Part shown: positions 11,185-57,882 of the stretch, one piece after another
Position numbering within the stretch: position 1 is the first letter of the stretch
Layout of the letters: the number at the start of each line of letters is the position of its first letter
Source: Synechocystis sp. PCC 7509
Lineage (GTDB): Bacteria > Cyanobacteriota > Cyanobacteriia > Cyanobacteriales > Chroococcidiopsidaceae
Direction of reading: 5' to 3'
DNA: 64,000 bases
Assembly (NCBI RefSeq): GCF_000332075.2
Contig: NZ_ALVU02000001.1
Span: forward strand, 1,054,001 to 1,118,000
Notes under the pieces: generated by a model
Seen by the model: the letters and a program-made list of their open reading frames with translations, nothing else
Told to the model about the DNA's origin: nothing
Database searches by the model: none
Program-made: the position numbers and the translations under genes

Positions 11185-11391
11185 AAACTACTGTACCTAC
11201 TGTGTTTTCGTCAGTATAGAGTTTATAGGCTTTGTAACTGCTCAATTGTTACTGTTTGATGGCAAGGAAATTAATATTTTAAGAAAACCGTCAGCACCCT
11301 AATTAATAGTAGTAGAAATATTTATAGCAAAAATGCCCAATTTGTGAGGAATTTAGGCATTTTTAAAGTTGTACATTAAATAATTTTTAAC

Positions 11392-11574
11392 TTATTCAGT
11401 TACATTAGGTTTTTTAAAGCTACATTCTTGGATAAAACAACGTTCTAGTAGTTTAATTTTATATAAATACCCAAATTGGCGCGGATTTAATATACATTTA
11501 GTTTCGGCACTAAAGACGGGTTGGCTTAAAAATTGCCATACTGGAAAATTATTCGAGCTATTTAGTATATTCAT
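11392..11574 (-). CDS. possible small protein, 60 aa
   Basis: Unrecognised. The predicted product has a protein-like core (VWQFLSQPVF...NPRQFGYLYKIKLLERCFIQ) with aromatic and charged residues spread as in a folded domain, unlike a random AT-rich frame. No clear ribosome binding site precedes the ATG, which lowers confidence. It sits alone in the long spacer upstream of the permease gene. It could be spurious. Confidence 0.35.
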   Translation of the reverse strand: MNILNSSNNFPVWQFLSQPVFSAETKCILNPRQFGYLYKIKLLERCFIQECSFKKPNVTE

Positions 11575-11763
11575 AGTACAAATTTACGGAGCGACGGTTT
11601 GATTGATTGCTGGAAAAATACAATCTTTGTTTACTTTTCCAGATTGCCATAATTAATATTCAATTTGCTTGGTGGGTTCTACGGAATATTTTAGACGGAT
11701 TTTTACAAACTATGTAATTTTGCGGATGCGCTATGAACAAATATAGTTTTTTTGTAGTAATTT

Positions 11764-11785
11764 GATACTGCAACTAACCAGTATC
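11764..11785. promoter_or_regulatory. palindrome 1 upstream of the FAD oxidoreductase
   Basis: GATACTG (11764-11770) and CAGTATC (11779-11785) are perfect inverted repeats separated by 8 bp. They share the half-site ACTG with the palindrome 10 bp downstream. Candidate operator for a dimeric regulator. Confidence 0.4.
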
Positions 11786-11795
11786 AATAAATTTA

Positions 11796-11815
11796 TTACT
11801 GTATTAATACAGTAA
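11796..11815. promoter_or_regulatory. perfect 20-bp palindrome (candidate operator)
   Basis: TTACTGTATTAATACAGTAA is a perfect 20-bp palindrome about 170 bp upstream of the FAD oxidoreductase start. It contains ACTGTA/TACAGT half-sites and, with the palindrome at 11764, looks like a tandem operator. It does not fit the GTAC-type LexA box usual in cyanobacteria. Confidence 0.45.
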
Positions 11816-11987
11816 GTTGGGAAAAGGCGATCGCAAATTATTATTAAATTTTTATACTAACTTCAACATAACGTAACATTGCAGTTTGTAAAGATAAATA
11901 CTGAGTAATGGAGGCTTGCCATAAACATTTTTGAAATGGTAACGTCTAAGGCTATCTAGACATCTTACGTTAAAGAAACTCCAGTAT

Positions 11988-14003: not shown

Positions 14004-14011
14004 AAAGTTAG

Positions 14012-14055
14012 GGGATGAGGGGATTTATTTACAGTTCTCTCATCCCGATTTTTTT
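14012..14055 (+). terminator. intrinsic terminator after the FAD oxidoreductase
   Basis: GGGATGAG (14012-14019) pairs with CTCATCCC (14039-14046), followed by a T-run at 14049-14055. A textbook rho-independent terminator, 9 bp after the stop codon. Confidence 0.85.
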
Positions 14056-14105
14056 ATCCTCTGGTATCTTGGAATGTAGTTTAATTAAGCTTTTTTATAT
14101 AGATT

Positions 14106-14435
14106 ATGACTAGGTTACATTCAACAATTGTCCGCGCTATGGTAAATTCTGCACCAACTATTGCTCCCACTCGTAACAGCGAAGTTACTCGTAAGATTTA
14201 TCCCAACTACAAAATTATTGTCTTAAATGACGATTTCAATACCTTTGAACACGTAGCAAAATGCTTGCTAACTTATATTCCGGGGATGAGTAGCGAAAAT
14301 GCTTGGGAACTAACTAATCAAATCCACTTTGAAGGACAAGCTATTGTCTGGGTTGGCCCTCAAGAACAAGCAGAGCTTTATCATCAACAACTTAGACGTG
14401 CGGGTTTGACTATGGCTCCTCTAGAGGCAGCCTAA
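14106..14435 (+). CDS. clpS: ATP-dependent Clp protease adaptor ClpS
   Basis: Adaptor that delivers N-degron substrates to the ClpAP/ClpCP protease. 109 aa. The core YKIIVLNDDFNTFEHVAKCLLTYIPGMS is the ClpS signature, including the Asn-Asp-Asp pocket residues, and EGQAIVWVGPQEQAELYHQQLRRAGLTMAPLE matches the C-terminal half. The first 30 residues are poorly conserved, so the ATG at 14139 is an alternative start. The DUF2103 gene begins 6 bp downstream, indicating an operon. Confidence 0.95.
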   Translation: MTRLHSTIVRAMVNSAPTIAPTRNSEVTRKIYPNYKIIVLNDDFNTFEHVAKCLLTYIPGMSSENAWELTNQIHFEGQAIVWVGPQEQAELYHQQLRRAGLTMAPLEAA

Positions 14436-42885: not shown

Positions 42886-43077
42886 ATGCCTACTAACGAC
42901 CAGGCTATTGCTTGTGTCAGAGTGTGTCAAATGCTCTCAAATGGTTATCAGCCTATTCATGTGTTCAGGTACAACCAGAAAACCAAAACAGTATTTATTC
43001 TTGCTGGGATAACTGAAAGCTTAGAAGTTTTGATTTTTCCTGATGGTCAATGGAGATTTAATGATGATGAAGCCTGA
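42886..43077 (+). CDS. DUF6888 family small protein
   Basis: 63 aa. MPTNDQAIACVRVCQMLSNGYQPIHVFRY and IFPDGQWRFN are the features I recognise from DUF6888, found in many cyanobacterial genomes. The fold looks like a short helix followed by four beta strands. It overlaps the next small gene by about 11 bases, the usual arrangement of toxin-antitoxin-like pairs. Which of the two would be toxic, if either, cannot be read from the sequence. Confidence 0.8.
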   Translation: MPTNDQAIACVRVCQMLSNGYQPIHVFRYNQKTKTVFILAGITESLEVLIFPDGQWRFNDDEA

Positions 43078-43273
43078 TTTTAGCAAAATGACTCGTCAAG
43101 AATTGAGAAATTATGTATTAGCGCACCGAGAAGATGATGATGCAATCGAGGCTTTAATCAATAAAGGAAATTCTCACAGCCTTAAATATCCTTTTCCCAA
43201 GACGGAAGACGATTTTAGAGAAATGGCAGAGATACTCAAGCAAAAATTGGGGAGTAAAGGAGAGATATCCTAG
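43067..43273 (+). CDS. DUF6887 family small protein
   Basis: 68 aa from the ATG at 43067; ATGs at 43061 and 43064 are equally placed. The motif KPDFSKMTRQELRNYVLAHREDDDAIEAL and the later KYPFPKTEDDFREMAEILKQKL match the DUF6887 pattern (a 'M-x-x-x-ELRxYVLxHR' helix). Its start lies inside the end of the DUF6888 gene, so translation is coupled. It is acidic and helical, as antitoxins often are; function unproven. Confidence 0.8.
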   Translation: MKPDFSKMTRQELRNYVLAHREDDDAIEALINKGNSHSLKYPFPKTEDDFREMAEILKQKLGSKGEIS

Positions 43274-43288
43274 AAAAGATACTATTTT

Positions 43289-43433
43289 GAGCGATCGCGC
43301 AATTCCACAATATTTTTAGCATTCTCCTTACCTATTTCCCCTATTCTCCACATTCTCTACATTCTCCCCCCTTATCAAGGGGGGCTGGGGGGGATCAACC
43401 GTTGAATCTCACCACAAACCCGCTCAAAATCAC
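43289..43433 (+). repeat. direct repeat copy A (DUF559 3' region)
   Basis: About 145 bp, from GAGCGATCGCGCAATTCC through the DUF559 C-terminal codons. Copy B at 43893-44046 is nearly identical but has one extra 10-base CATTCTCCA-type unit. Confidence 0.8.
43361..43399. repeat. GC-rich palindromic repeat, downstream arm
   Basis: Contains CCCCCCTTATCAAGGGGGG followed by CTGGGGGGGATCAAC. Matches 43758-43796 in inverted orientation at 38 of 39 positions; the two arms bracket the DUF559 gene. Confidence 0.85.
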
Positions 43434-43677
43434 CTAAAATTTGCTGATTTGTAAATCGGATTACCTCGATCCCGTAACCTTCTAACCTTTGAGTTCTTTC
43501 GCAATCATAATCTTTGCCATCATTGGTACAGTGGCTTTCTCCATCGACTTCAATTACTAGCTTGAGAGTAGGACAGTAGAAGTCAACAATAAAATAATCA
43601 ATTGGTCTTTGTCGTAAAACTGTAAACTTGAAAGTTCTTAAATATCCGTACCAAAGCCTTTTTTCTGCGCTTGTCAT
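43375..43677 (-). CDS. DUF559 endonuclease-like protein
   Basis: 100 aa as written from the ATG at 43677. DUF559 proteins have a Vsr/PD-(D/E)xK-like nuclease fold; here RQRPIDYFIVDFYCPTLKLVIEVDGESH holds the D-x(n)-E-x-D/G core and the following EVIRFTNQQIL strand. The upstream frame stays open and reads FYLPYNPALIPQAKELRKN, which is the normal DUF559 N-terminus, but no ATG, GTG or TTG is found before the GC-rich repeat at 43758. The gene is thus probably 5'-truncated or uses an odd start. Its last codons (IPPSPP) come from the repeat at 43361. Confidence 0.78.
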   Translation of the reverse strand: MTSAEKRLWYGYLRTFKFTVLRQRPIDYFIVDFYCPTLKLVIEVDGESHCTNDGKDYDCERTQRLEGYGIEVIRFTNQQILGDFERVCGEIQRLIPPSPP

Positions 43678-43757
43678 GTTTTTTCGCAGTTCTTTCGCTT
43701 GAGGAATTAAAGCGGGATTGTAGGGAAGATAAAACTCGCTATCTTTGACGTTTAACA

Positions 43758-43796
43758 GTTGATCCCCCCCAACCCCCCTTGATAAGGGGGGAGAAT
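43758..43796. repeat. GC-rich palindromic repeat, upstream arm
   Basis: Reverse complement of 43361-43399 with one mismatch (CT versus TT between the G-runs). Its inner edge coincides with the point where the DUF559 N-terminal extension loses its start. Confidence 0.85.
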
Positions 43797-43892
43797 AAAT
43801 AATTAGGAATGGTTGTGGTTGTTTGTTTGTTCAATTTATCCTCTTTTGTGCGATCGCCTGAGTTTTTTTAGCACGATTATCTCTAATGTAGG

Positions 43893-44046
43893 GAGCGATC
43901 GCGCAATTCCACAATATTTTTAGCATTCTCCCTACCTATTTCCCCTATTCTCCACATTCTCCACATTCTCTACATTCTCCCCCCTTATTAAGGGGGGTTG
44001 GGGGGGATCAACCGTTGAATCTCACCACAAACTCTCTCAAAATCAC
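43893..44046 (+). repeat. direct repeat copy B, carrying a DUF559 3' remnant
   Basis: Nearly identical to 43289-43433. On the minus strand its end encodes SDFERVCGEIQRLIPP, the C-terminus of a DUF559 protein, starting within 3 bp of the stop codon of the restriction-modification gene. It is a remnant of a second DUF559 gene. Confidence 0.8.
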
Positions 44047-44048
44047 TC

Positions 44049-46264
44049 TTAATTTATCTCTCCTTCCACAATCTTAATTTCTGCTTCTGTCAATTCGTAA
44101 AGTTGATAAACCAGTCGATCTATTTCGGTTTCAATGTCCTTAATGTCTTTCCCTTTAGCGTCAAGACATTTTTTTACAAGAGTCTCTATCTTTTTTTGCT
44201 CTGTTTTGGTAGCAATAAAGATAGGAATTTGTTTCATATAGTCGCTAAATGATCTCAGATAACCACCTCGAATAGAGTTAGAAATCATCGAATAGAACCA
44301 TTCAACTAATTGAGAGTTTAAAAGCCCACAAAGCCACACTTCATTAGTTGGAATAAAGTAGCAAGTATTACCTGCATAAAAACCTAATCGATCAATTGAA
44401 AAACTTTGATGCTCATAAATATCAGGATAGATAATTTTAGGTTGCTCAAATTCTTGCCAGTAAATACAAGAGCGTAATTCCCAAAAATATTTACCTTGGT
44501 CGCAGCGCTTGATTAATGATTCTTTAAATTGAAAAAAATATTGATAAATTGCCGGATAAGTTTCTGAAAAAATTTCCTCTGCCTCTTTTTCTGGTCGATC
44601 AGACCAGGGATGTTTTTTATTTTCAGAAGATTCAATTTTGATGATATATTGATCAGTAAAATCAATATGCCATCGCTTAATATCTCGACCACGCAAAAAA
44701 GGCTTTAACACTTCAGCAGAAGAAGTGTCTTCAGTAATCAATCTGTCGCGTGTAGCTTTATTTACAACGAATGCCTCATTAAAACCTGTCTTAATTCCGT
44801 AATAAAATCTGCCGTTTATATACTCCCCTAACGGCGTACCAGAAGTTTGCAGTTTTGCTAATAAGTTTAAGGTTTGAAAAGACTCTAGCCGCCAACCGTC
44901 AGATTTCAAGTTTCCCTGCGAAATTGTTAAACTATCTTGCTCTAATTCCGTCGCAAAATGTGCAATATTTTGTTTTTTCGCTTCATCCCATGACAAAGTT
45001 TGTACTTGATTTGCATTAGATTGAATTTTACTTAAAATGATAATGCTAGGATAGGCGATCGCTTCTTCAAAAACTGGAAAATCACCGAAATCGATTAAAT
45101 AGTGAATCGTTGTTGAATCTGTTAAAAGTTGGCGTAATTTCTTACCATAACCCGCTCTAAAATATTTGTTAGAAGATATATAAGTTAAATGACCGCTTGC
45201 TTTTAATAAATGCAAGCTTAATTCATAAAAATATACAAACAAATCAGCAACACCTGTATAGCATTGATAATTTTGCAGCAAAATTGGCTTTAATTCCTTG
45301 ATATCTTCCTGTCTGATATAAGGTGGATTCCCAACTACTACATCAAAGCCAATAAAATCACCTTCATTATTCAAAACTTCAGGAAATTCAAACCGCCACT
45401 CTAGCGCATTTTCATAAAGCCTACCGCTTTCTATATCCTCAATCTCAACCCTTAATTTATCAATTTCATTATTTAACTTAGCGATCTTTTGATCTCGTGC
45501 TTTTTTAGCTGCTTTTGTCTCCTCAAATAACAAAGGTTGTTCTAAACCATAAACCTCACCCTCTAAATTTCTCAACTTAGTTTTATTTGGATCAATTCCT
45601 TGCAACGTCGTCTTAAAACTGCCTTTGATATCTTTAATTAATCTTTCCATTTCTCGCTTTTGCTCTTTACTTTCAGCATTGCGATAAGTTTGCACAGCAT
45701 TTTTATAAGTATCTATACTGTGTTTATTTTTATTTAAAGCTTGTTTCAAATCAGCATCCAACGCAAACCGACTAATTAAAGAATTACCGCACTTGATATT
45801 AATATCAATGTTTGGTAGAGTCTCTAATTCTGTCCCATTACTTTCTACCCGATAATAAGCATTTTTTAAAAGCTCAATCCATAGCCGCAAACGACAAATT
45901 TTTACTGAGTTTGGATTAATGTCGACACCAAATAGACAGTTTTCAATAATTGTCTGCTTCTCGTGAAAAAGCGTTTCTTGTATGCGCTGACTTTCTTTGC
46001 TTTTTGGATTGTACTCAAATAACTTTCCATCATCATCAATGACAATCAGTTCATCATTTACAACTTCAACCTGATAATCTCTTAAGGTTTTCCCACTTCT
46101 ATCAAGGAGAATTTTTAATTCACTTTTGATTGCAATTATTTCATTAAGAGCCGAAACTAAAAAATGTCCCGAACCTACCGCCGGATCGCAAATCTTTAAA
46201 CTATTAATAATGTTGTTAGCGGCTTTTTTGTCTGTAATTTTTTCATTCAAATCATCAATATTTT
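44049..46264 (-). pseudogene. Type IIG-like restriction-modification gene, 3' part (methylase and specificity)
   Basis: C-terminal 735 codons of the split gene. The amino-methyltransferase begins with motif I ICDPAVGSGHFLVSALNEI (Asp-Pro-x-x-Gly-x-Gly) and has catalytic motif IV VVGNPPYIRQ with N at 45329, as in Eco57I-type enzymes. The remaining 430 residues look like a target recognition domain (LGEYINGRFYYGIKTGFNEAFVV...FLRGRDIKRW...SIRGGYLRSFSDYMKQIPI). The reading frame is intact to its stop. Without the 5' part it has no proper start (a TTG at 46277 inside the IS is the only one near), so it is probably not made in full. Confidence 0.88.
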
Positions 46265-46273
46265 GGTGATGCA

Positions 46274-47103
46274 TCAAATTAATGTGGGATAGGTAGCAAT
46301 ATCATGCCAACTCCACGCTCTCGTTGCTAATCCGGCTCGTTGTGCAGCAGTTGTTTTGAATCGGCTATGCTGCCAAATCCAGTTGAAGTAACTCACCACT
46401 AATCGAGTTGTCACTTTTGTCTGTTCCCACACCTTACCAAACTTGTTCTGTCGTCGATGCCATCTTCCGGTTTGTTGTCGCACAGTACCATTAGTACGTT
46501 CTAATCGCTGCGTTTTGTCTTTGCCAATGTAGTGGTGAATTTCAGGAGGTAGAACTCGCTCATACCCGCCCCAAGCATCACTGTTAAATTGCTTGCAATT
46601 TGTTTTTCCCTCGGTGTTGAGGACTAACTGACCAATCAGTTCATCAGTGTGTTTGCCAACTCGCGCCGCCAGAATTAAGCCACTTGAATCGGCAAGACTC
46701 AGACCGATCCAACAATCCCCGACTTCTAGTTCTTGAGCGCAACACTGTTTCTGTTTTTTGAGACAAATGACCACATCTCATCGGCACTTACCTCCTCTGT
46801 TTGTACAGCTTGGACTTCGGCATTGTGAACCAATTGGGCTTTTTGACTGGCAGCGCGAACAATACTCACAACTGTGTTGTAGGCAAGCCCAGTTGTTCTA
46901 CTAATCCCTCGTAAACTACTGCCCTCACTATGTGCTTGCAACACTTGGCGAATTTGTTCAGGACTAATATGTCGACGATAGTACAAACTGTCGAAGGATT
47001 CCGAGAACGTTTGATGGCAAGCGGGACACAGGTAACGTTGATGTCCGTTCGGCATCTTGCCATGTTTATGGGCTTTAATGTGACCACACAGAGGACAATC
47101 CAT
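46274..47103 (-). CDS. IS1 transposase InsAB' (by -1 frameshift)
   Basis: DDE transposase read by fusing InsA (from 47103) to the InsB frame, which ends at 46274. The slippery run is AAAAAAC (complement of 46753-46759), the same A6C signal used by E. coli IS1. The fused protein carries the first Asp in SADEMWSFV, the second in FNSDAWGGY and the Glu in RLERTNGTVRQQTGRWHRRQNKF. Slip gives SKKQKQCCAQ across the junction. All catalytic parts are present, so transposition should be possible. Confidence 0.88.
46726..47103 (-). CDS. insA: IS1 InsA DNA-binding protein
   Basis: 125 aa in the zero frame. A zinc finger (CPLC at 3-6 and CPAC at 26-29) and a helix-turn-helix (HISPEQIRQVLQAHSEGSSLRGISRTTGLAYNTVVSIVR) bind the element ends. 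When no frameshift occurs it ends at the TAG just after the slippery site and, by analogy with E. coli IS1, acts as repressor of transposition. Confidence 0.88.
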   Translation of the reverse strand: MDCPLCGHIKAHKHGKMPNGHQRYLCPACHQTFSESFDSLYYRRHISPEQIRQVLQAHSEGSSLRGISRTTGLAYNTVVSIVRAASQKAQLVHNAEVQAVQTEEVSADEMWSFVSKNRNSVALKN

Positions 47104-47168
47104 AGAGATGCTTCGAGTTTAAAACCACCCTGTCACTATATCATCCCACATTGAATTGACGCACTACC

Positions 47169-48746
47169 AATATTTTGACAATTTAAACCATTAAATTCAT
47201 TAAATTTCTGTACCACCGCTCTACGAATTGTTTCACGACACATATACATCGTAATAAAGCCTGGTGTAAAGAAAGAACCATCTTTATAGCCGTTAATTTT
47301 CTCAAAAATTAGACCAAGCACCGAAGCATTAATTAGTGTTTTATTTTCTTCTTGAATCTCCTCCGAACCTTCACTACTAAAATCATAAGCATTGAGAAAT
47401 TCAAATAAATATTCCAAAGCATTGAGATTACCCAATCGCCTTTTACCATTACTATTTTTTAAAACACTAGATGAAAAAATAGGCAGCTTTTCATCTCTGA
47501 GATTGCTAATAAAAATGGTTAACTGCTCGATATCCGTTGGCTCAAACAACGAACTGTTAAGATAAGGAATATTAGCAAAAATGGCTTTTATACTTGCATT
47601 GCGATCGCATTGCTTACGAGCTAGTACGTCAAAGAAAAGTCTATTAACATCACCATAACTTTGTACTTTTGTCAAGCTCAAAAAAGCAAAAGATTGATCG
47701 CCTTTATGATATTTGATTAATTGAGCTTCTAGTAACTTAAGGAAAAGAACACGATTTATCCAAGTGATTACTAACTCTAAACCAACATTAAAAAGTCTTT
47801 CTCCTTCAGAATCTCCAAACTGTTCCGGCTTTTCTATTCGAGAGATTTTGTCTAAACTATCAAGCTGATTGATGGCATTTTCAAGCAAAGAACCTGCAAC
47901 GCGATCGCCTTCTTTTTTGCGTCCGATTAGCTTTTTGCTACCTTCCTTTGTTTCCGTCAAGCCGATAATATACAACAACTCGTTATAAAAAGCCTTATCT
48001 AGTCTGTTGCTATCGTTAGCAAAGGGCAATTTTAATAAATGTTCTGGGGAAAACAGCTTAAATAATGCAATCAGTTCGTGATCGCCTTCTTCGTTACTAT
48101 TCCTCAAAAACCCGTCATAGTCGCGGATATCAAAATGGGTAAACTCAATTTCATTTTCAACGAGTGCGAGTGCGATCGCTTTTTTAGCAATTTGTGTATA
48201 GAAAAATTCAGTTTTTGTACTACTTAGTCTCCCGGCTTCAAAATCAGTAAATTGCTTTACCAGTGCTTTGTTTTGGACAAATAGCTGTTCAAAAGTCGTT
48301 GCATCAAAAATAAACCACTCGTAAATATTAGTTGCAACTAAGTATCTAATTTCAAGATTATTGCCTTTTATTCTTTCTCGCAAAAAGTATAAAACTAATT
48401 CCTGAAAAGCCTTAGTATTTAGATTGTCAACCGCCAGCATCTCGCCTTTATTGGTTGGCTTCTTAGCTTCCACAATTACACCAACATTGCTTTTAGCATC
48501 TTTGCCATTATGAATAACAAGATCGTTGCGACCTTTGGTATTGATAAAATGACTTGGACTATAATAGGTGTGCTTTAAAAAATCAGCAACAAGATTTTTA
48601 TGAAATTCCTCAGATTCAGTCTCATTGATTTGGTCGATTAGTTTAATTAGATTAGTTTTGAAAGTTTCAATATTCTCCCTGATTGGCTTAACTTTAAGGA
48701 ATGCTTTATTTAATGCTTGTCTTGGCGATAATTTTTTGGGTGTCAT
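47169..48746 (-). pseudogene. Type IIG-like restriction-modification gene, 5' part (nuclease)
   Basis: First 526 codons of the split gene, starting MTPKKLSPRQ. An N-terminal PD-(D/E)xK nuclease is visible as D75 (GRNDLVIHN) and E93-x-K95 (VGVIVEAKKP). A helical connector follows to the point just before methylase motif I. As it stands the frame runs ten codons into the IS and stops at 47136. Joining codon ATT at 47169 to GAT at 46256 reads CQNIDDLNEKITDKK without a shift, giving 1261 aa: nuclease, methylase and specificity in one chain. Confidence 0.9.
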
Positions 48747-48932
48747 GAAAAAAACTAAGAGTAATAAATATATTTACTCCAGTATGCCCAATTACTACTA
48801 AATTGGTTGTATTTTCTCCGGCGTTGGATGAATTACTTACAACCTATCTATTTAATAAAACTTAATGCCAAGTTGTAGCTCTAATGCGTACAGATTGGTG
48901 GTTAGTTAGAAGCAACAATTTATAGTGAAAAA

Positions 48933-49421
48933 ATGAAACAAGAGCGATCGCGCGATTCTTTAATTACGATTCTGCTGCCAATATCATTAATTTTTGGTTT
49001 AGTTTTACTTTTGAGTCTAAATACCGGAGAGTCGAGTATCCCCGAAGAAAGCAGCCCTTTAGAGTCTGGGCTTAAAGTCATAGTTGATTATTTAGCAGTA
49101 GGGGCAGAAATTGCCGCCGCTTTAGTTATTGGTAGCGCGGTTGTACGGGCGATCGCTACCTATTTGCGCCAGTTATTTTCTCGTTCTAGGCAACATCAAG
49201 ATGCTACCGAATCTATCCGCCTAAAATTAGGACGATTGTTGACTTTGGGATTGGAATTTACTGTTGCTAGTGACATTCTCCGCACTGCTGTCGCACCCAC
49301 GCGCCAAGATATTTTAAACTTGGGGGCGATCGTACTGTTAAGAACTTTACTTAATTACTTTTTAGAACAGGAAATTAGACAAGGAGAAGAAAGCCATCCT
49401 AGTGAACAAGAACGCAATTAA
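48933..49421 (+). CDS. DUF1622 family membrane protein
   Basis: 162 aa with an N-terminal transmembrane helix (about 10-26) and two further hydrophobic helices in the DUF1622 core: VDYLAVGAEIAAALVIGSAVVRAI, then RLKLGRLLTLGLEFTVASDILRTAVAPTRQDILNLGAIVLLRTLLNYFLEQEI, the family signature. Function unknown; inner-membrane location inferred. Monocistronic, divergent from the R-M gene by 186 bp, and followed by a hairpin. Confidence 0.88.
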   Translation: MKQERSRDSLITILLPISLIFGLVLLLSLNTGESSIPEESSPLESGLKVIVDYLAVGAEIAAALVIGSAVVRAIATYLRQLFSRSRQHQDATESIRLKLGRLLTLGLEFTVASDILRTAVAPTRQDILNLGAIVLLRTLLNYFLEQEIRQGEESHPSEQERN

Positions 49422-49434
49422 GTTAAAAAAAATA

Positions 49435-49458
49435 ACAGACGCTAAATATAACGTCTGT
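49435..49458 (+). terminator. hairpin after the DUF1622 gene
   Basis: ACAGACG (49435-49441) and CGTCTGT (49452-49458) form a 7-bp stem 14 bases past the stop codon, preceded by an A-run. Probable terminator, weak T-run. Confidence 0.5.
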
Positions 49459-49503
49459 AGCCTAGTAATTATCAGTTGTTTGCCCCTTCGTAAACCTCTC
49501 AGG

Positions 49504-49660
49504 ACTAGATCGATCAACTCAAGCGGTCTCGCCCTAGTACGCCTTTTACACTTCATGGAAGTCCCACCGGGTAGGGCGTACTAGGGCGAATGACCGTACA
49601 GTCAAGATCGAGCTAGTGATGCGTGCTTGAACTAAACGCAAGGATGGCGATCCACCATCC
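49504..49660. ncRNA. candidate structured RNA or palindromic element
   Basis: Gene-free but highly structured. Outer stem ACTAGATCGATC (49504-49515) with GATCGAGCTAGT (49606-49617), 11 of 12 pairs. Inner stem GGTC plus TCGCCCTAGTACGCC (49525-49543) with GGCGTACTAGGGCGA-AT-GACC (49575-49595), 19 pairs with a 2-nt bulge. A small ACTTC-ATG-GAAGT hairpin sits in its loop. Two further hairpins follow: TGCGT/ACGCA (49620-49640) and GGATGG/CCATCC (49642-49660). No T-run and no known RNA family recognised. It could be a small RNA on either strand, or a miniature palindromic transposon remnant. Confidence 0.5.
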
Positions 49661-49696
49661 GGATTGCAAGGCTGTTACCAACTAAAATTACTCAAT

Positions 49697-51337
49697 TTAA
49701 TATTGTCGGGCGTGTTGCATTCGCAACGCTAAAATGTGTTCGCAAGGGCCTTTATACAGCTTGTTTTGCTGATGCCAATTGCAAGTACATTCTGCGTTAA
49801 TTATCCGCTCATCGGTGTCTACTGTCAAGGATGGGTGGTAGTTTTTCTCGCGTTCTGTAACATTTCCTTGTAAGGTGAATGAGCCTGTAGCACCGCCAGT
49901 AATATTTGTAACTTGAACGTTGTTATCAATTAAAAAACGGGTGGCTTTTTCTTCCCGATCATTGGCAAATCGCAGCCTTTCCATTGGTAAAGGTTCGCGG
50001 CTAAGTTCTCGGATACGGTAGACTTGCTTGTTTAAGTCGTAAATAGCCCGTCCTGCTTGGGTGTACGCGCCTAAAGCGCCGAGAATAACTACTCGATTGA
50101 GGTTTAATCGTTCGGCGAGACTATCGACGCTTTCTACCCAGTTTTTCTTAAGTTCGTTGTAAATATGTTGCTGCGTCCACTTGTCTATATCGGCACGAGG
50201 AGCCATAAGATCGAAGTTACCAGATTGCGCCCAATCGTTTGCTGTCCATCCTGATAAACCGAGGGTAAAAGACATATCGCCTAAGTCAGCGACGTAGAAT
50301 GAAGGCATCCCCGTACCTAGTAAGTAAACCGAAAACTTTTTGGCAATGGGAATTAGGCGTTCTAAGATATTAAGGCGGCGACGACCCCAAATGCGGATTT
50401 CTTGCTCATGCAAGCCAGTGTAAGGCGATCGCGTACAAACTAATTCTATTCCCCAAGGTTCAAATTTTACCTTCACTGGTTGACCTGGTTTAAGAATATA
50501 GCGCATACTACGAGGGCCTTTTTTCTCTTTGTGGCGGCGGAGAATAAAGCAGATATTATAAATATCCATTGGGTGCAAATCAAAGTGAGTTGCGGGTAAA
50601 GACATCGCCGAACTAACTTGTAAAAAGCCTCTTACCCAACTATCAGGTAAATCAATTTTGACTTCTTTATAATCGGCTTCGTTGGTTGTTTTAACGTCAA
50701 AGCCGGAGGGGTCAATTTCAAAGCGAGTATTTTTATAACTGCGGATTTTTTGAAACTCATCGTACAAAGCGGCGGAGTAGTCAATATTTGTAGTTCCGCA
50801 AGCAAATTCGCTGATGTTTTTAAATATTTCGTAACTAGCACTAAGTCTCCCATAACTTGATTCATCTTGACTAAAACATTCAAAAAATACCTCGTCAGGA
50901 TGAACGGTAATTACTGGATCTAAAACAAACCAAGCATCTCGATCTTTTTGATAAAGATATTCAAAGTAACGGCTTTGAGCGTTGTAAAAAGGGGCGCGTC
51001 GGTCGTAATTTCGGCGGTTTAATTCTTGAAATTCTTGCTGTAATTGATTGAGGCGGTTTTTTACTTCAGCGCTTTGGGCGGCAAGTAATTCTAAATCTAA
51101 GTTTTGCTGATTTGCTGCCCATTCTTTGTAAGCTGTTTTATCTTTTGGTTTGAAGCGCATATCGGAAACAACAACGTTATGTAAGGCGCTGATTGCTTCT
51201 CTAAATGCCACATTTTGCCGCAATTCTCCGACAAAATAAGTGGGCTGGCGCAAGGTGTCAGGAGAAAATGACATTTGAGTATTTGCGCTGTTTTCGTTTA
51301 TTACGGTGCTGCCTTTGTAATTGTAGTTAAATTCCAT
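49697..51337 (-). CDS. SWIM zinc-finger protein
   Basis: 546 aa. The C-terminus carries a SWIM zinc finger CxC-x(n)-CxH: C517, C519, C532 and H534 in CTCNWHQQNKLYKGPCEH. The long N-terminal part has no motif I recognise (mixed alpha/beta, with PATHFDLHPMDIYNICFILRRHKEK and VRGFLQVSSAMSLP), and the middle HIYNELKKNWVESVDSLAERLNLNRVVILGALGAYTQAGRAIYDL looks like a helix-turn-helix. It starts 38 bp after the WGR gene, so the two form an operon. SWIM proteins of this kind are partners of WGR proteins, MoxR ATPases and vWA proteins in other bacteria. Function unknown. Confidence 0.85.
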   Translation of the reverse strand: MEFNYNYKGSTVINENSANTQMSFSPDTLRQPTYFVGELRQNVAFREAISALHNVVVSDMRFKPKDKTAYKEWAANQQNLDLELLAAQSAEVKNRLNQLQQEFQELNRRNYDRRAPFYNAQSRYFEYLYQKDRDAWFVLDPVITVHPDEVFFECFSQDESSYGRLSASYEIFKNISEFACGTTNIDYSAALYDEFQKIRSYKNTRFEIDPSGFDVKTTNEADYKEVKIDLPDSWVRGFLQVSSAMSLPATHFDLHPMDIYNICFILRRHKEKKGPRSMRYILKPGQPVKVKFEPWGIELVCTRSPYTGLHEQEIRIWGRRRLNILERLIPIAKKFSVYLLGTGMPSFYVADLGDMSFTLGLSGWTANDWAQSGNFDLMAPRADIDKWTQQHIYNELKKNWVESVDSLAERLNLNRVVILGALGAYTQAGRAIYDLNKQVYRIRELSREPLPMERLRFANDREEKATRFLIDNNVQVTNITGGATGSFTLQGNVTEREKNYHPSLTVDTDERIINAECTCNWHQQNKLYKGPCEHILALRMQHARQY

Positions 51338-51375
51338 AAGATTTATTTGTTCTGAACGGTTTTATCAGTCACCTA

Positions 51376-54300
51376 TTACCTAACTTCTACAGTTGGTTTA
51401 ATTGCTATTGGTAAAGGTATTTGCGGGTATTTTATATGAATTTTTAGCATTATTTGCAAGGCGGAGGCTTTATCGCCAATTGCGACTGTTGCAGATTGCT
51501 GGGTAAGAATTTCTGCAACTATTTGGGCTGCTACTTCGCTTTTTTGAGCTTCAGTTTCCAAAAAACTAAAAATTCTCTGTTTTGCTACTCTCCCGCGATT
51601 GACGCTGCATAAAATTCTCATGAAATACGGGGTTAATTCTTGCAAACGTTCGGGATTATTTGCGCCATAGTTTTCTAAATAATTAGTCACAAATAGCTGC
51701 ATATCTGCGGAGGGATGTTCGCTAAGTTTTAATAGATATTCTTGTCCAAAACTTTCTTGAAAGTTGCGAGTTACTAAATCTCTCCCAAATTGACGCACAT
51801 CTTCTCTCACGCTGTCACAAATACTTACCATTACTTCCGGTGTCCAATCTTTTTCAGTGGTAAAAATTGTGGTGGCAAACTCTCTAGAATCATTCCATTT
51901 TGATTCTAATAAACGTACAGCCGATCGCATTTGTTCCGAGTTATGGCGTATTTGCGGCAAAACAAGCTGAAACATTTGTCTAGCTGCTTCCCGAATTGCT
52001 AGTATTTCGTGACTTGCAAGTTTTACTATTTCGCTAATGGAAAATTCTGGTAAAAAGTTGCTGCTGTTGGCTTGCAATACAATTCCTCCCAATTCTTGCG
52101 CTAAAGCAGATTTATTCCGAATTAATAGCATAGTTGTATCTTTGCTAATGCTAGACATTCCACTTAACAAGTCTTCGCGCATTAACTGCACTAAATCTTT
52201 GTGAACTCCATCATGGTTTTCTGGGGTAAGGAGAAAAAGGATTAATTCAAGAGCGATCGCACTAGCAAATTCTGTATTATTATTGGCTAAACGTTTAATT
52301 ACTGGGCGAATGGCGTGGCGAATCTCTGGTACGGCGTTGATTGCCATTGCCACAAGTAAAGTGCGATTATTTAAGAGTTTTTCATCGGGTAATTGTCCAA
52401 AAATCCTCACTCCTATACCCCTAACTGATGCGTGAGGGGAAGCTAAAAGAAACTCTATTAAGTCTGAGGGTAAATCTGCCGCTTTAGTGTCATGATTGAG
52501 CAAAATTCGCGCCCCCAACTCTTGAATTTCTGACATTGGGTGTTGTAATAAATCCAAAATGATCCCAAAACCTAGGCTGCGCAGTTGAGGAGTAAAGCTA
52601 AGTAGTAAGGTTTGGCTAATGTCATGCGCTATTTGAGTTTGAGTTGGTTGTAATGCTAGTAGCGCCGAGATTATTTGCCCGATTAGTAATTTAGCTGTAG
52701 CATCGTTTAAAATGGCTGAACTTAGCAACCTCCGGGCAAAGGCGCGAGTTTCGGATTGGTTGCTAATAACTAAACCTGCAATTAAGTTACTTACAGAAGT
52801 TAAAAAGTATTCTTTTTTCGCTTCAATCCAACTATAAGATTGGGTACGAGCATTTTGTAAGATGCAATTGGCAACCGCTAATACTAATTGTGAATTTGGT
52901 TGAGTAGGATTGTAATGAGTAAGGGCAAGTTCAAAACCCAATTCGGCGGTAACTTCGTAGGGTTTAGCGAGTAGTTTAATTGTGGTGTCAATGTTTAAAT
53001 TATTGTAGTCTGGGCAGCTACGAAAAGCTTTTACAGCAAACTGGTGTACTGGGCGACATTCACTCCCTAGAATTAGCTGTAATAAAGCGGTAGGTTTTTG
53101 TTGCCATAATTGCGGAAACGCCTCCTCTCTAATCGTCGGTTCTTTGTCTCCTGGTTGGTAAGATGGGCTGCAACGCCAAGATTGGGAATGATGGATGTAG
53201 CGCTGACTGTGTTCGTAGAGAATATGGTTAAAAGTTGTGTAATTAGCGTAGGCATCCCAATTTATAGTAATGACTTCGCGTCTACGAGTTTGTTGATTCC
53301 ACTTAAAATAGCTGATTTGACGCACTGGTGCAGCATCGGCATCAACGTATTGTAAAAGAATACCAACAGCTAAATTGACATAATTAGCATCGCCTTCTTC
53401 TCCCAACTGCTTGAGAGTACGCCATACCCGCCGCCGCAGATATTCACGAGTTTGTTTACTATAGGCTTTGGTTGACTTAGGACTTTTAAGTTCTGTAGCA
53501 TGGATTCTAGGCTTGCTAACAAGAATGGATCTTTGATTAACTGCATCCCAGCGCCAATTATTTGTACGCTTATTGTCAAAGGTACTGGGTTCTTTTTCAA
53601 AAGCATAAGCAAGAATACCAAAAACTTCTGCGTCGTGGCGATACTCGGCAATTTTAAAGATATGGCGCAGACGTTGGAAATAGTTGGGTTTTAAAGGTGC
53701 TTCGCAAATAGCATCTAGCAATGCAGGGCGCACAAATTCGTTATCTATTTGATAAATTGTGTCTAAAACGGCAAAACGTTGATATTCGTTTGTTGTTAAA
53801 TAATCTTTGAGTGCGATCGCAAATCCTGTACTATTTAGCGCTAAATCCCTTAACTGCGGGGGTAATTGAGCAATTTTTTGGGCTTTCATTTCCTCCCGCG
53901 CTGCGGTATCTGATAGCTTATACAAGGCTTCCCAGGCAATGCGGCGGACAAATTCAAATTCGGCGGAATTTTGAGTAAGCTGTTGTAAAGGTGCGATCGC
54001 ACTATTATCGCCACACCATCCCAAAGCCCAAGCTATACAGTAATCTCGCAATAGTTCGCCCGTGCCAATTAGTTGAATTAGAAGCGGTGTAGCTTCTCTA
54101 ATTTTTAGTTCTCCAGCCCGCCAAATTGCCCGATCTAAATTCCATTTACTGCGGTTTCTACCTGCTAAACAATTAAGAATTTGGGCGTGTCGAGGGTTGT
54201 TATCAATCGTTGTTAGCGGTGAGATTATTACCGGAATTACAGTTTGTTTTGCAGGTAAATTATTTGGTTCGCAATAGCCTTTTTGAATTTGCGTTTCAAC

Positions 54301-54498
54301 TAATTTGTCAAATACTTTCTGCGCCTCGGTTTGGGCTATGGGCTGAACGGTTTTTATACCTTCTTTTAAACTAGCGCCGCGCTTGCCGTAGCGGAAGTTA
54401 ACTGTATATAAGTTGCCTATTTGACATAGATCGATTTCATAGATTTTATCGGAACTACCTTGTTGATAAATTAAGGTTGTTCTTTTAATTAATTGCAT
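51376..54498 (-). CDS. WGR-domain HEAT-repeat protein
   Basis: 1040 aa. Residues 1-75 form a WGR domain (LIKRTTLIYQQGSSDKIYEIDLCQIGNLYTVNFRYGKRGASLKEGIKT), the nucleic-acid-binding fold found in PARPs and in E. coli MolR/YehI. The rest is an alpha-solenoid of HEAT-like repeats (for example AIWRAGELKIREATPLLIQLIG, AIAPLQQLTQNSAEFEFVRRIAWEALYKL, ELGARILLNHDTKAADLPSDLIEFLLASPHASVRGIGVRIFG). No catalytic domain. First gene of the operon with the SWIM protein. A role in DNA or stress response is suggested by the domains only. Confidence 0.87.
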   Translation of the reverse strand: MQLIKRTTLIYQQGSSDKIYEIDLCQIGNLYTVNFRYGKRGASLKEGIKTVQPIAQTEAQKVFDKLVETQIQKGYCEPNNLPAKQTVIPVIISPLTTIDNNPRHAQILNCLAGRNRSKWNLDRAIWRAGELKIREATPLLIQLIGTGELLRDYCIAWALGWCGDNSAIAPLQQLTQNSAEFEFVRRIAWEALYKLSDTAAREEMKAQKIAQLPPQLRDLALNSTGFAIALKDYLTTNEYQRFAVLDTIYQIDNEFVRPALLDAICEAPLKPNYFQRLRHIFKIAEYRHDAEVFGILAYAFEKEPSTFDNKRTNNWRWDAVNQRSILVSKPRIHATELKSPKSTKAYSKQTREYLRRRVWRTLKQLGEEGDANYVNLAVGILLQYVDADAAPVRQISYFKWNQQTRRREVITINWDAYANYTTFNHILYEHSQRYIHHSQSWRCSPSYQPGDKEPTIREEAFPQLWQQKPTALLQLILGSECRPVHQFAVKAFRSCPDYNNLNIDTTIKLLAKPYEVTAELGFELALTHYNPTQPNSQLVLAVANCILQNARTQSYSWIEAKKEYFLTSVSNLIAGLVISNQSETRAFARRLLSSAILNDATAKLLIGQIISALLALQPTQTQIAHDISQTLLLSFTPQLRSLGFGIILDLLQHPMSEIQELGARILLNHDTKAADLPSDLIEFLLASPHASVRGIGVRIFGQLPDEKLLNNRTLLVAMAINAVPEIRHAIRPVIKRLANNNTEFASAIALELILFLLTPENHDGVHKDLVQLMREDLLSGMSSISKDTTMLLIRNKSALAQELGGIVLQANSSNFLPEFSISEIVKLASHEILAIREAARQMFQLVLPQIRHNSEQMRSAVRLLESKWNDSREFATTIFTTEKDWTPEVMVSICDSVREDVRQFGRDLVTRNFQESFGQEYLLKLSEHPSADMQLFVTNYLENYGANNPERLQELTPYFMRILCSVNRGRVAKQRIFSFLETEAQKSEVAAQIVAEILTQQSATVAIGDKASALQIMLKIHIKYPQIPLPIAIKPTVEVR

Positions 54499-54813
54499 AG
54501 GAATATATATAAAAGCTTATTACTAATTATATTCCTAGTTAATAAGATATCCTGAACTTATTGCAGTTAGTTTTTGTTAAATCTTTATAAGCTTAACTTT
54601 ATAATTAAAAATTGATTTTTTAGTTAAATAACTATGTGTGAACCTACTATCTTTGCAACCCAAACAATCTGATACTTTTAGATGTCTTACCAGCTAGAGG
54701 AATTTCGGCAAAGTTTGGTTATACGCTTCACCCTAAAACTAAATTTTTGCTTACCAACTTCTAGGTAAGGTGAAAACTCCACAGTGCCAACTTTACGGGG
54801 GACTTACATTATT

Positions 54814-54854
54814 AAAAAAAGACCAGCCTACCACAGCTAGTCTATAAATTTTTT
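54814..54854. terminator. bidirectional terminator
   Basis: AAAAAAA-GACCAGC (54814-54826) pairs with GCTAGTC (54836-54842) and leads to TTTTTT at 54849-54854. The A-run and T-run make it usable from both strands; it probably ends the NFACT transcript. Confidence 0.55.
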
Positions 54855-54859
54855 CTTAG

Positions 54860-54956
54860 ATTGTCGTTTGATTCCAGGAAACCCAACTGTGCTATCCCAA
54901 AGCTTCAGCTAGTAGAAATCTGTGCTTTTATTGTAACAGGAAACACAGACTTTTTT
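54860..54956 (+). ncRNA. candidate small RNA ending in an intrinsic terminator
   Basis: A + strand terminator (TCTGTG 54919-54924, CACAGA 54944-54949, T-run 54951-54956) stands with no + strand gene before it. The stretch upstream carries AGGAAACC and, in the terminator loop, AGGAAACA, similar to the GGAAACA motif of the cyanobacterial Yfr2 family. A promoter was not identified. Tentative. Confidence 0.3.
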
Positions 54957-55039
54957 ATAAAAGTTCACAGTATCTTGACATACTACTCTCAAAATAGATA
55001 TGTAAAGCTTAAATTTACGTCTAAATCAAGAGGACAAAA

Positions 55040-56779
55040 TTACAAATTACTAATTACCGGATTGAAGTTACTCGGCTTTCCCCACAAAATGCGTTCTTGC
55101 TTATAAATAGCAATACCAGGTTTAGCGCCCTTAGGCTTATAGACGTGCTTGGGTTGAGTATAAACTACCGGAACGCGATCGCTTTGACGGGAACGACTGT
55201 AGTAAGCAGCTAAATCCGCAGTAAATTGTAAATCGCGGTCTTCTGCTACAGCACCGGGTTCTAGGCGCAATAGTACGTGAGCGCCAGGAATTTCTTGAGC
55301 GTGAAACCACAAATCGTAATCATTGGCTAGGCGAAAAGTTAAGCGATCGTTTTGCTGATTATTACGCCCGATTAAAACCTCAAAGCCGCTAGGAGTGCGA
55401 AACCTATGAAAATTTGGGGTTGTGTCAGTTTTAGAAGTAGGACGCAGGTATTGCAAACCTTCCAGAATCTTTTGCCCAATTAATTCCTCGCGGATTTCAT
55501 AAAGTGCATCTAAATCGGCGATTGATTGATACTTATCTATTTGAGAAATTGCATTTTCTACCTGCTCTAAATAGTCAATCTCTCCCTGTACGTCGTTTAG
55601 TAATGGCTCTACCGCACCACGAGCGCGTTTAAGCTTGCCTACTTGTTTATAAAGCTTTTGAGCGTTTTGGACGGCGTTTTTTTCCGGCTCTAAACCAATT
55701 GTTACAGGTTGACTTGTATCAAAATCAAGCAAAACAATTTCTTTCATCCCCAGTTGCCATGCTGGCAAATTAGCCATCAACAAGTCGGCTTGCTGGCGGT
55801 ACACATCCGCCCCTTCGGACTGCTGCAAGCGCTCCGTAAAAGTTCGAGCTTTGAGCCGCAATTTTTCCAAAATATTGCTCAGTTTTTGCAACAATTGATT
55901 GCGTAACTGAATAAATTCTTGCTGATTTAACTCCTGTGTATAGTAAAAATCGAGCAACTCTTGAGTATTGGCAACGGGTTTTGTTACTTCCCAACCCATT
56001 ACTGTATAACCTTTAGCAGTCCAGCCAGGAAAAAATTGTAGTTTCTCTAAGTTTTGCAACCATTCCAGCCAACGGCTAAATAACCTTTGCCAATCGGCGG
56101 GTTCTAAACTGGTGGTAGATTGTTCTGGATCTAAATCTGCTGCTCGTACCATTGACTGTACCAAAGCTGGACTCAAACCCCGGTAACTTTTGAGTAAACA
56201 GCGTCCTATTGGACCTGGAACTAAGTTTACTCGTTCAATCCAACGCGAATTTTCCTCCTTCACCGATGGTACAGTACCGCTCAATGATGGGGGCAATTCG
56301 TAAGTTTGCCCGGTTTGAATTGGACGAACACTTGACTGCTGTTGGCTGACTTGGTGCGCCGCCGTGACGATAACATTACTAGCATCGGTAAGAATAACGT
56401 TGCTGTATTTGCCCATAATTTCTACATACAAATGCCACAGAGCGCTTTCTCCGGGACGACGGGCAAATTGCAAATCAATCACCCGTTCCCAAGGGGCGAC
56501 TTCTTCAAGCGCCACTAGCGCCAAACCATTTAACTGATGAATCAATTGTTGACTAAAGGTAAAAGTATCAGGACTTCGCGGCGGCGGTGAACCCATACAA
56601 AAATGCGCCGCTTGGGGATGCCAGCATATTTCTAGCCATCCTCGCTGATTTAATGTGCGTAAAGCGATCGCAATTGTAAAGCGGTTTCGTTGGTATACTT
56701 GCTCGGTACGCGCTGGTAGCCACAACGTCCGAATTTCGCAAGTAGAAGCAATTAAAGTTGTCAAGTCAACAGGTTGCAA
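55040..56779 (-). CDS. NFACT family protein (Rqc2/FbpA-like)
   Basis: 579 aa. NFACT-N and helix-hairpin-helix regions (MQPVDLTTLIASTCEIRTLWLPARTEQVYQRNRFTIAI...RGLSPALVQSMVRAADLDPE), a coiled coil about 290-420, and the C-terminal NFACT-R domain (FHRFRTPSGFEVLIGRNNQQNDRLTFRLANDYDLWFHAQEIPGAHVLLRLEPG). Bacterial members (RqcH) bind stalled 50S subunits and add C-terminal alanine tails in ribosome quality control; whether this one does so is inferred. Divergent from the remA-like gene by about 210 bp. Confidence 0.93.
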   Translation of the reverse strand: MQPVDLTTLIASTCEIRTLWLPARTEQVYQRNRFTIAIALRTLNQRGWLEICWHPQAAHFCMGSPPPRSPDTFTFSQQLIHQLNGLALVALEEVAPWERVIDLQFARRPGESALWHLYVEIMGKYSNVILTDASNVIVTAAHQVSQQQSSVRPIQTGQTYELPPSLSGTVPSVKEENSRWIERVNLVPGPIGRCLLKSYRGLSPALVQSMVRAADLDPEQSTTSLEPADWQRLFSRWLEWLQNLEKLQFFPGWTAKGYTVMGWEVTKPVANTQELLDFYYTQELNQQEFIQLRNQLLQKLSNILEKLRLKARTFTERLQQSEGADVYRQQADLLMANLPAWQLGMKEIVLLDFDTSQPVTIGLEPEKNAVQNAQKLYKQVGKLKRARGAVEPLLNDVQGEIDYLEQVENAISQIDKYQSIADLDALYEIREELIGQKILEGLQYLRPTSKTDTTPNFHRFRTPSGFEVLIGRNNQQNDRLTFRLANDYDLWFHAQEIPGAHVLLRLEPGAVAEDRDLQFTADLAAYYSRSRQSDRVPVVYTQPKHVYKPKGAKPGIAIYKQERILWGKPSNFNPVISNL

Positions 56780-56987
56780 AGCAAATCTTCTTTAACTAAG
56801 AGAATAGAATTAAGTATTTGTTCTACCTTTTGAGGCATATCTAAAGGTAGAAAAATTAAAAAAACCGAGATTAAAACCCCAAAAATCAGGTTTTTAGCTA
56901 ATTTTAGGCTTGTAAGTCCAAATTTTTGTATATAACATTGAAGTTAGGTTTCAAAGCTTGTCATAAGGCGCGTCGCGTCATTTTTGC

Positions 56988-57248
56988 ATGGATATTCAGC
57001 TTATAAATATCGGTTTTGGTAATATCGTCTCTGCCAACCGAGTAGTTGCGATTGTTAGTCCCGAATCTGCCCCCATTAAGCGTATTATTACAGATGCGCG
57101 CGATCGCGGGCAGCTAATTGATGCTACTTATGGTCGGCGTACTAGGGCGGTAATTATTACTGATTCTAGCCACGTGATTTTGTCGGCAATTCAGCCGGAA
57201 ACTGTAGCCAATCGGTTTGTCCTTAGCCGCGAACAACCAGATAATTAG
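56988..57248 (+). CDS. remA: RemA-like (DUF370) regulator
   Basis: 86 aa, DUF370 family. [77 protein letters not shown] matches the Bacillus RemA pattern over its whole length, including the DNA-binding Arg region. RemA activates matrix genes in Bacillus; the cyanobacterial target is unknown. Followed 28 bp later by gmk in the same orientation, a pairing seen also in Bacillus and many cyanobacteria. Confidence 0.93.
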
Positions 57249-57276
57249 TATAGAGCGCTGTAAATAAAAATTGAAT

Positions 57277-57882
57277 ATGTCGAATTTGTGCCAGGGAATG
57301 CAAATTTCTAATTCTACTCAAGACAATTGCCCATCTTGGGGGAAGTTAATTGTTTTAACCGGCCCTAGTGGCGTTGGCAAGGGTACTTTGGTGCAAGTTC
57401 TCCGGCAACGTCACCCCGAACTTTATTTGTCAATTTCTGCGACTACTCGTTCGCCACGTCCGGGGGAAATTCAAGAGCAACATTACTACTTTGTTAGTCG
57501 TAATGATTTTGAAAAAATGATTGCGGGCAATAATCTTCTGGAATGGGCAGAGTTTGCGGGGAACTATTACGGCACTTTGCGTTTACCTGTAGAACAAAAA
57601 CTCGCCCAAAGCAAAACTGTTTTGCTGGAAATTGAGCTACAAGGAGCTAAACAAATTTCTACTTCTATGCCCGATGCCTTACGGATTTTTATTCTACCGC
57701 CGTCTTTTAGCGCCTTAGAGCAACGCTTGCGAAACCGCGCCACCGACTCCGAATCAGCTATTGTTCGTCGTCTTCAACAGGCCCAAATAGAAATTGATGC
57801 CGCTTGCGAGTTTGATTTACAAATTATTAATGACGACTTAGAAACAGCTTTGCATCAACTGGAGACTGCTATATTTGGTTAA
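57277..57882 (+). CDS. gmk: guanylate kinase
   Basis: Phosphorylates GMP to GDP. About 201 aa from the ATG at 57277; the ATG at 57298 gives 194 aa and is about equally good, while the TTG at 57271 is less likely. P-loop [16 protein letters not shown]-binding [11 protein letters not shown] and [31 protein letters not shown], lid [19 protein letters not shown]. Complete. Confidence 0.96.

Follow-up and report, generated by a model that had tools for sequence, protein, structure and literature searches.

Canonical retrons carry a reverse transcriptase (RT) and an msr-msd RNA in one transcript, according to an excerpt of PMC8867640. An excerpt of a review groups the RT of Mx162, the first-found retron, with RTs of Nostoc and Trichodesmium (PMC6868368), and a passage of PMC11953036 says that a Variovorax strain carries a 'retron type XIII' by PADLOC. 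Here we analysed a window of 64,000 nucleotides from Synechocystis sp. PCC 7509. Positions 49464-54498 of this window probably encode the accessory proteins and the RNA of a type XIII retron; the RT of this retron would act in trans from a site 635 kb away. The features of the locus are as follows:

51376-54498, minus strand: WGR-HEAT protein (WGR_XIII), 1040 amino acids (open frame, PADLOC and Pfam)
49697-51337, minus strand: SWIM protein (SWIM_XIII), 546 amino acids (open frame, PADLOC and Pfam)
49464-49692, minus strand: structured RNA, probable msr-msd (folding, covariation and profile match)
49484-49671, minus strand: core profile match of the RNA (E 1e-48)
49679-49692, minus strand: 5' arm of the 14-bp end stem (a1-like), pairing with 49478-49464 with one bulged base (folding)
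49464-49478, minus strand: 3' arm of the end stem (a2-like; folding)
49504-49617, minus strand: long compensated hairpin, probable msd, the template of the DNA (alignment covariation, helices 3-7)
49589-49575 / 49543-49529, minus strand: 15-bp stem of the long hairpin (folding)
49435-49458, minus strand: terminator-like hairpin with a T run, ending the WGR-HEAT/SWIM/RNA unit (three found versus a shuffle mean of 0.5)

An earlier note on this DNA had described a two-gene pair of WGR-HEAT and SWIM proteins, and both frames, 38 bp apart, were confirmed. The WGR-HEAT protein matched the PADLOC model WGR_XIII (PDLC02973) with 1195.9 bits over residues 1-1036, and the SWIM protein matched SWIM_XIII (PDLC02972) with 815.6 bits over residues 1-543. 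By these full-length sequence matches, the two are accessory proteins of type XIII retrons. We take the PADLOC type XIII models (RT_XIII, WGR_XIII and SWIM_XIII) to derive from the classification of Mestre et al. 2020. Pfam detected HEAT_2 in the WGR-HEAT protein (E 1.4e-10); the WGR and SWIM domain matches lay slightly below the curated cut-offs (16.3 bits versus 22 and 19.4 bits versus 19.6, respectively). A WGR-HEAT profile matched the solved structure 2ra8, which we take to be a WGR protein, over residues 8-93 (E 0.003), and the CxC...CxH zinc ligands of the SWIM protein did not vary among the 43 SWIM proteins aligned. The predicted structure of the WGR-HEAT protein (mean pLDDT 88.2) has a beta-rich N-terminal WGR part followed by a long HEAT solenoid, and a structure search with this model returned only general HEAT scaffolds. 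Scanning genome contigs with the single WGR-HEAT sequence gave no relative, whereas the SWIM alignment did find relatives.

To the earlier note, only WGR and SWIM appeared to remain at this locus. The set is larger: a structured RNA at 49692-49464 (minus strand), absent from that note, belongs to it, and a matching RT lies elsewhere in the genome. Four PF00078 matches were present in the genome; two of them (one on contig C2, one at C1:3622267) were group II intron-like by inspection and one other was weak. RT_XIII was found at C1:1743057-1744457 on the plus strand with 650.9 bits (next PADLOC family, 314 bits). The motifs NAxxH, YADD and VTG are hallmarks of retron RTs, and all were intact here (NAxxH as NALPH). 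The genome contains, then, an RT of the matching family with its catalytic residues present, and the reading of the genes as an orphan pair was rejected. The distance from this RT to the WGR-HEAT gene is 634,556 bases on the same 4.2-Mb contig, and the RT does not adjoin the RNA in one transcript. Because of this distance, and because no copy of the RNA was found near the RT, we file the window as part of a dispersed variant and not as a canonical retron locus. All three protein families are full-length, as in type XIII retrons, and the RNA occupies the position that it has between SWIM and RT at linked loci; the difference is that the RT is 635 kb from the RNA and the accessory genes, so that proximity rules would miss the window.

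The RNA begins just past the SWIM stop codon. The flanks of each gene (700 bases on the upstream side, 500 bases on the downstream side) were compared between the window and 33 related loci. Directly after SWIM, the window has a conserved non-coding block, mostly of 65-98% identity; the same block is found between SWIM and RT at linked loci and ahead of RT in some split genomes. A candidate RNA upstream of WGR-HEAT (54800-54990) was not supported, as it had no significant match in the same comparison. The RNA has a minimum free energy of -106.2 kcal/mol versus -73.2 ± 4.6 in shuffled sequences (z -7.2), and its elements are the end stem of 14 bp, one short hairpin and the long hairpin at 49617-49504, with the terminator-like hairpin following. 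In an alignment of 26 RNA sequences, pairing was retained in 94.0% of the cells versus 30-44% when the alignment was slid, 35 of 55 consensus pairs showed two-sided changes, and 255 cells were two-sided versus 78 in shuffled alignments. The ends of 97 such RNAs paired with their own partner at a mean of -33.3 kcal/mol, versus -18.4 kcal/mol with swapped partners; 66% lay beyond the swapped 5% tail, and weak cases exist (e.g., L099, -14.9 kcal/mol).

A profile of the RNA found one copy in the window and zero copies in 19 kb around the RT of the same genome. Rfam searches gave no match to any family at E up to 1 at positions 43000-57500, no match to the msr family RF00170 in the genome, and nothing at gathering scores in 7 of 12 linked loci. 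Because its ends are paired, because hairpins lie upstream of a long, variable one and because of its location next to a retron RT, we regard the RNA as a probable retron msr-msd, identified by position and shape rather than by a curated model. Like canonical retrons, the locus has a folded RNA whose ends pair and which carries a long variable hairpin, and the retron RT motifs are shared too; it differs from them in having separate transcription units and an RNA with no Rfam msr match.

The distribution of the genes connects RT and pair. WGR-HEAT was present in 14 of 60 relatives, but in none of the 18 others that belong to the genus or family of PCC 7509, and in 19 of the 388 genomes of the class; a 20th, G164, was dropped because nothing more than a WGR match of 112 residues, in a frame of 367, was found there. 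The union of the order and class sets comprises 29 WGR-HEAT genomes, 28 of which carry RT_XIII. Only G069 departs from this; its WGR-HEAT gene is at the edge of a contig, and it has neither RT nor SWIM. In the class set, RT_XIII at 480 bits or more was found in 18 of 19 genomes with WGR-HEAT versus 4 of 369 others (Fisher 3e-26, genomes treated as unrelated). Four genomes carry a related RT (485-536 bits) and no WGR-HEAT. RTs related to RT_XIII (376-536 bits) were seen in G259, G189, G084 and G164, all without WGR-HEAT, and as extra copies in Archangium (G443, G445); they are a sister group with other partners. RT_XIII and WGR_XIII were both present in 19 of 19 named genomes searched; of these, 6 served as linked controls and 13 had been chosen because the fetched flank had no RT.

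The RT was near the pair in 15 of the 29 genomes (on the opposite strand in 3 of them) and apart in 13 (G000, G021, G022, G033, G041, G049, G051, G059, G065, G171, G243, G268 and G380). Ten of these 13 split cases are on different contigs of draft assemblies; the other three are on one contig, at 635 kb (PCC 7509), 249 kb (G268) and about 23 kb. The parts that separate vary: in G065, SWIM is still with the RT and WGR-HEAT is apart, and in G041 RT, WGR-HEAT and SWIM are on three contigs. The three genes lie at three places, 0.8-3.4 Mb apart, on a single contig of Moorena bouillonii PNG; on single contigs, too, the separation is 1.19 Mb in Calothrix parasitica NIES-267, and in ESFC-1 the RT is 1.15 Mb and WGR-HEAT 57 kb from SWIM. 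The RNA stays with SWIM in nine split genomes (G000, G049, G059, G022, G033, G051, G380, G021 and G041) and goes with the RT in three (G268, G171 and G243). Among the 63 cyanobacterial loci of the 80 named loci described below, the fetched flank contained the RT in 31 and the RNA in 54, both counts being lowered by short contigs. Extra or partial WGR-HEAT copies lie beside the main one in Calothrix parasitica NIES-267 (L166) and Calothrix sp. NIES-4105 (G441).

SWIM had 570 relatives in GTDB; the named loci that we examined are the 80 best of them, divergent members being outside this sample. Seventeen of the 80 were non-cyanobacterial (Acidobacteriota, Myxococcota, Planctomycetota and other Proteobacteria-labelled contigs). 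SWIM, RNA and RT were contiguous on one strand in all 17, and WGR-HEAT lay directly upstream of SWIM in 16, L202 having no WGR-HEAT match; the linked gene order is WGR-HEAT, SWIM, RNA, RT. Cyanobacterial genomes often scatter operons. Since the operon is contiguous in 17 of 17 non-cyanobacterial loci, comparison of the sequences suggests that it is likely to be ancestral and to have been scattered by cyanobacteria. More than one copy of the retron RNA was seen at L184 (11741-12694), L036, L038, L123, L141, L155, L160, L166, L171, L174 and L175; four copies lie in a row on an acidobacterial contig, and L185 and L193 have two matches each, perhaps one broken match.

In close pairs, dN/dS was 0.03-0.22 for RT, WGR-HEAT and SWIM, split genomes included; the nearest pairs of PCC 7509 itself were saturated at silent sites. 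RNA pairs were as intact in split genomes (93.8%) as in linked ones (94.1%; 13 rows each, p 0.60). Correlations of distances (Mantel r) were 0.85 for RT-WGR, 0.64 for RT-SWIM and 0.69 for WGR-SWIM in split genomes, versus 0.96, 0.91 and 0.92, respectively, in linked genomes; all of them beat 2000 permutations. The RT of PCC 7509 grouped with that of G033 (support 70), and its WGR-HEAT and SWIM proteins with those of G043, G056 and G029. Because the correlations are lower in split genomes and the tree neighbours of the RT differ from those of the pair, the history of this RT may be partly separate. Trees of 34 rows, from which G041 was left out since no SWIM sequence was extracted, require at least 7 changes of the split or linked state for RT and at least 8 for WGR and for SWIM.

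We also modelled the SWIM protein. The best AlphaFold2 model, made with 43 relatives, had a pLDDT of 70.9 (the four others, 52.5-60.9), with residues 240-360 mostly above 85. Foldseek returned PCNA or a related 9-1-1 clamp in all 50 matches listed of the 254 at E up to 0.001, and the 50 entries listed by VIA-align had Z scores of 18.6-19.4 over about 230 residues; viral structures matched were also mostly clamps. Residues 34-364 of the model superpose on the whole of PCNA, both clamp domains included (Z 19.4, 3.2 Å, 230 of 245 residues). The predicted layout is a clamp fold at 34-364 with an inserted coiled coil, followed by the C-terminal SWIM zinc finger. Unlike PCNA, the protein has a long insert, an additional C-terminal part and a SWIM finger, and identity is 7-12% in the alignment rows listed. 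No PCNA family was found in its sequence by Pfam at E up to 1, and no PCNA chain by a profile search of the PDB at E up to 1. The four inner helices of the clamp are not all basic: two have a net basic charge (K+R versus D+E of 5.8 versus 1.0 in aB2 and 3.0 versus 1.9 in aB1), aA2 is neutral and aA1 acidic. On this one model of middling confidence, the SWIM protein likely has a PCNA-like fold.

The restriction-modification island that the earlier note placed beside the pair is real by Pfam and PADLOC. One of its genes, of type IIG (44049-48746), is split into two open reading frames that match positions 4-484 and 485-1245 of a single 1247-position PADLOC model, and an IS1-type insertion (InsA-like and IS1 transposase frames, 46274-47103) lies between them. 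Near the distant RT, vWA, Uma2 and WGR/beta-propeller proteins are encoded (C1:1734000-1753000, locus L007, at 10409-14434 of that stretch), and the vWA and WGR proteins have a C-terminal repeat (GYNPxFNVQFP...) in common. The small WGR/beta-propeller protein (about 475 amino acids) is 2.6 kb from the RT, with the vWA and Uma2 genes between, and has no PADLOC match. Its gene was found in 24 of 388 genomes of the class and in 10 of the 19 with WGR-HEAT (Fisher 7e-9, genomes treated as unrelated), and in the fetched flank of 11 of the best 80 of 570 loci; in Archangium it heads the operon. It is a possible fourth part of the system, though not an essential one. Other recurring neighbours, namely two-component signalling (12 loci), RTX repeats (5) and DUF2887 (4), were judged generic.

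If the parts work together, the WGR-HEAT/SWIM/RNA transcript would yield the folded RNA. The RT would recognize this RNA in trans, prime from the 2'-OH of a conserved guanosine and use the long hairpin as template for msDNA, a branched molecule of RNA and DNA. RT, msDNA, SWIM protein and WGR-HEAT protein would then assemble into a complex that is silent before infection. Phage infection, by disturbing the msDNA or DNA replication, would free the complex to stop the cell, one of its proteins presumably being toxic. Contact with DNA, whether to read or to grip it, may be the task of the clamp-like SWIM protein and of the DNA-binding WGR domain.

Retron function in trans is the best-supported reading of the genome evidence. 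The points against it are that RT and RNA are apart, that no Rfam msr family matches, that the trees of split genomes agree more loosely, and that there are genomes with the RT only and one, G069, with WGR-HEAT alone. This last genome, the distance of the RT and its different position in the tree would also fit a decayed retron, in which the RT has moved or been acquired anew, leaving WGR-HEAT, SWIM and RNA as a relic or as a block that acts independently of msDNA. We consider this unlikely, since the three reading frames are uninterrupted, catalytic and zinc residues are preserved, RNA pairing is no worse in split genomes, dN/dS is well below 1 even there, and the RT is retained in 28 of 29 WGR-HEAT genomes. 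The same strong purifying selection could instead reflect a housekeeping role in DNA maintenance (replication or repair by a clamp-like protein with reverse-transcribed DNA) and not phage defence. Scattered genes would therefore persist, as the cyanobacterial ones do as separate loci, unlike a mobile defence cassette, and the PCNA-like fold would find its place. This role is improbable, however, in view of the patchy spread (14 of 60 relatives, none of 18 in the genus or family), the adjoining restriction-modification genes and the listing of these families among defence systems by PADLOC. The earlier note had named conserved neighbours from a known housekeeping pathway as what would speak against its own reading; the recurring neighbours in our survey were retron parts.

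That reading was a minimal two-gene WGR/SWIM sensor of nucleic acids, left over from a WGR/AAA/vWA/SWIM cluster like the E. coli yeh genes. Common ground consists of the domain words WGR and SWIM and of the vWA protein beside the distant RT; the latter resembles YehP over a 23-residue stretch only (E 0.03). By annotation, the yehI-yehQ cluster shares the words SWIM and vWA with our loci; K-12 YehI is annotated as DUF4132, and the PF05406 (WGR) protein at that locus is YehF. BLASTP, however, revealed no similarity to YehI (best E 1.2) or YehQ (best E 5.3), and homology to the yeh cluster was rejected on this ground. No RT or RNA is annotated in the E. coli stretch examined, whereas RT and structured RNA are the conserved companions here. 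Among the open reading frames listed at 40000-64000, no MoxR-type ATPase or vWA partner was found by eye. Derivation from a yeh-like cluster is highly improbable. A conflict-type system that handles nucleic acids, as the earlier note proposed, is probably correct, but not as a minimal pair, since RT and RNA are partners.

Beyond retron function in trans, we tentatively suggest a dismantled retron, in which the loci for RT, template RNA and effectors would be independent of one another and their products would have to meet in trans, an arrangement that may have evolved repeatedly in cyanobacteria. As one effector would combine a PCNA-like clamp with a SWIM finger, such a retron might sense DNA replication, or attack it, by means of this clamp, which could travel on DNA of the phage or on the DNA that the retron itself has reverse-transcribed. 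In one open-access collection of papers, we found nothing joining a retron with WGR and SWIM, or with HEAT repeat and SWIM, and nothing on a bacterial protein with PCNA-like and SWIM domains; a search for retrons with sliding clamps or PCNA gave only unrelated subjects by title and abstract. As far as we searched that collection, the dispersed type XIII form, in which many genomes keep the RT separate from template RNA and effectors, is undescribed. Within the same collection, the likely PCNA-like fold is the first structural lead on this class of effector, and it links retrons to replication clamps. Retrons are usually described, and searched for, as compact cassettes of RT, RNA and effector. 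If scattered type XIII systems work, proximity-based annotation misses many of them and the recognition of RNA by RT must be specific enough for action in trans. Cyanobacteria would then be a natural test bed for finding out which parts of a retron must meet.
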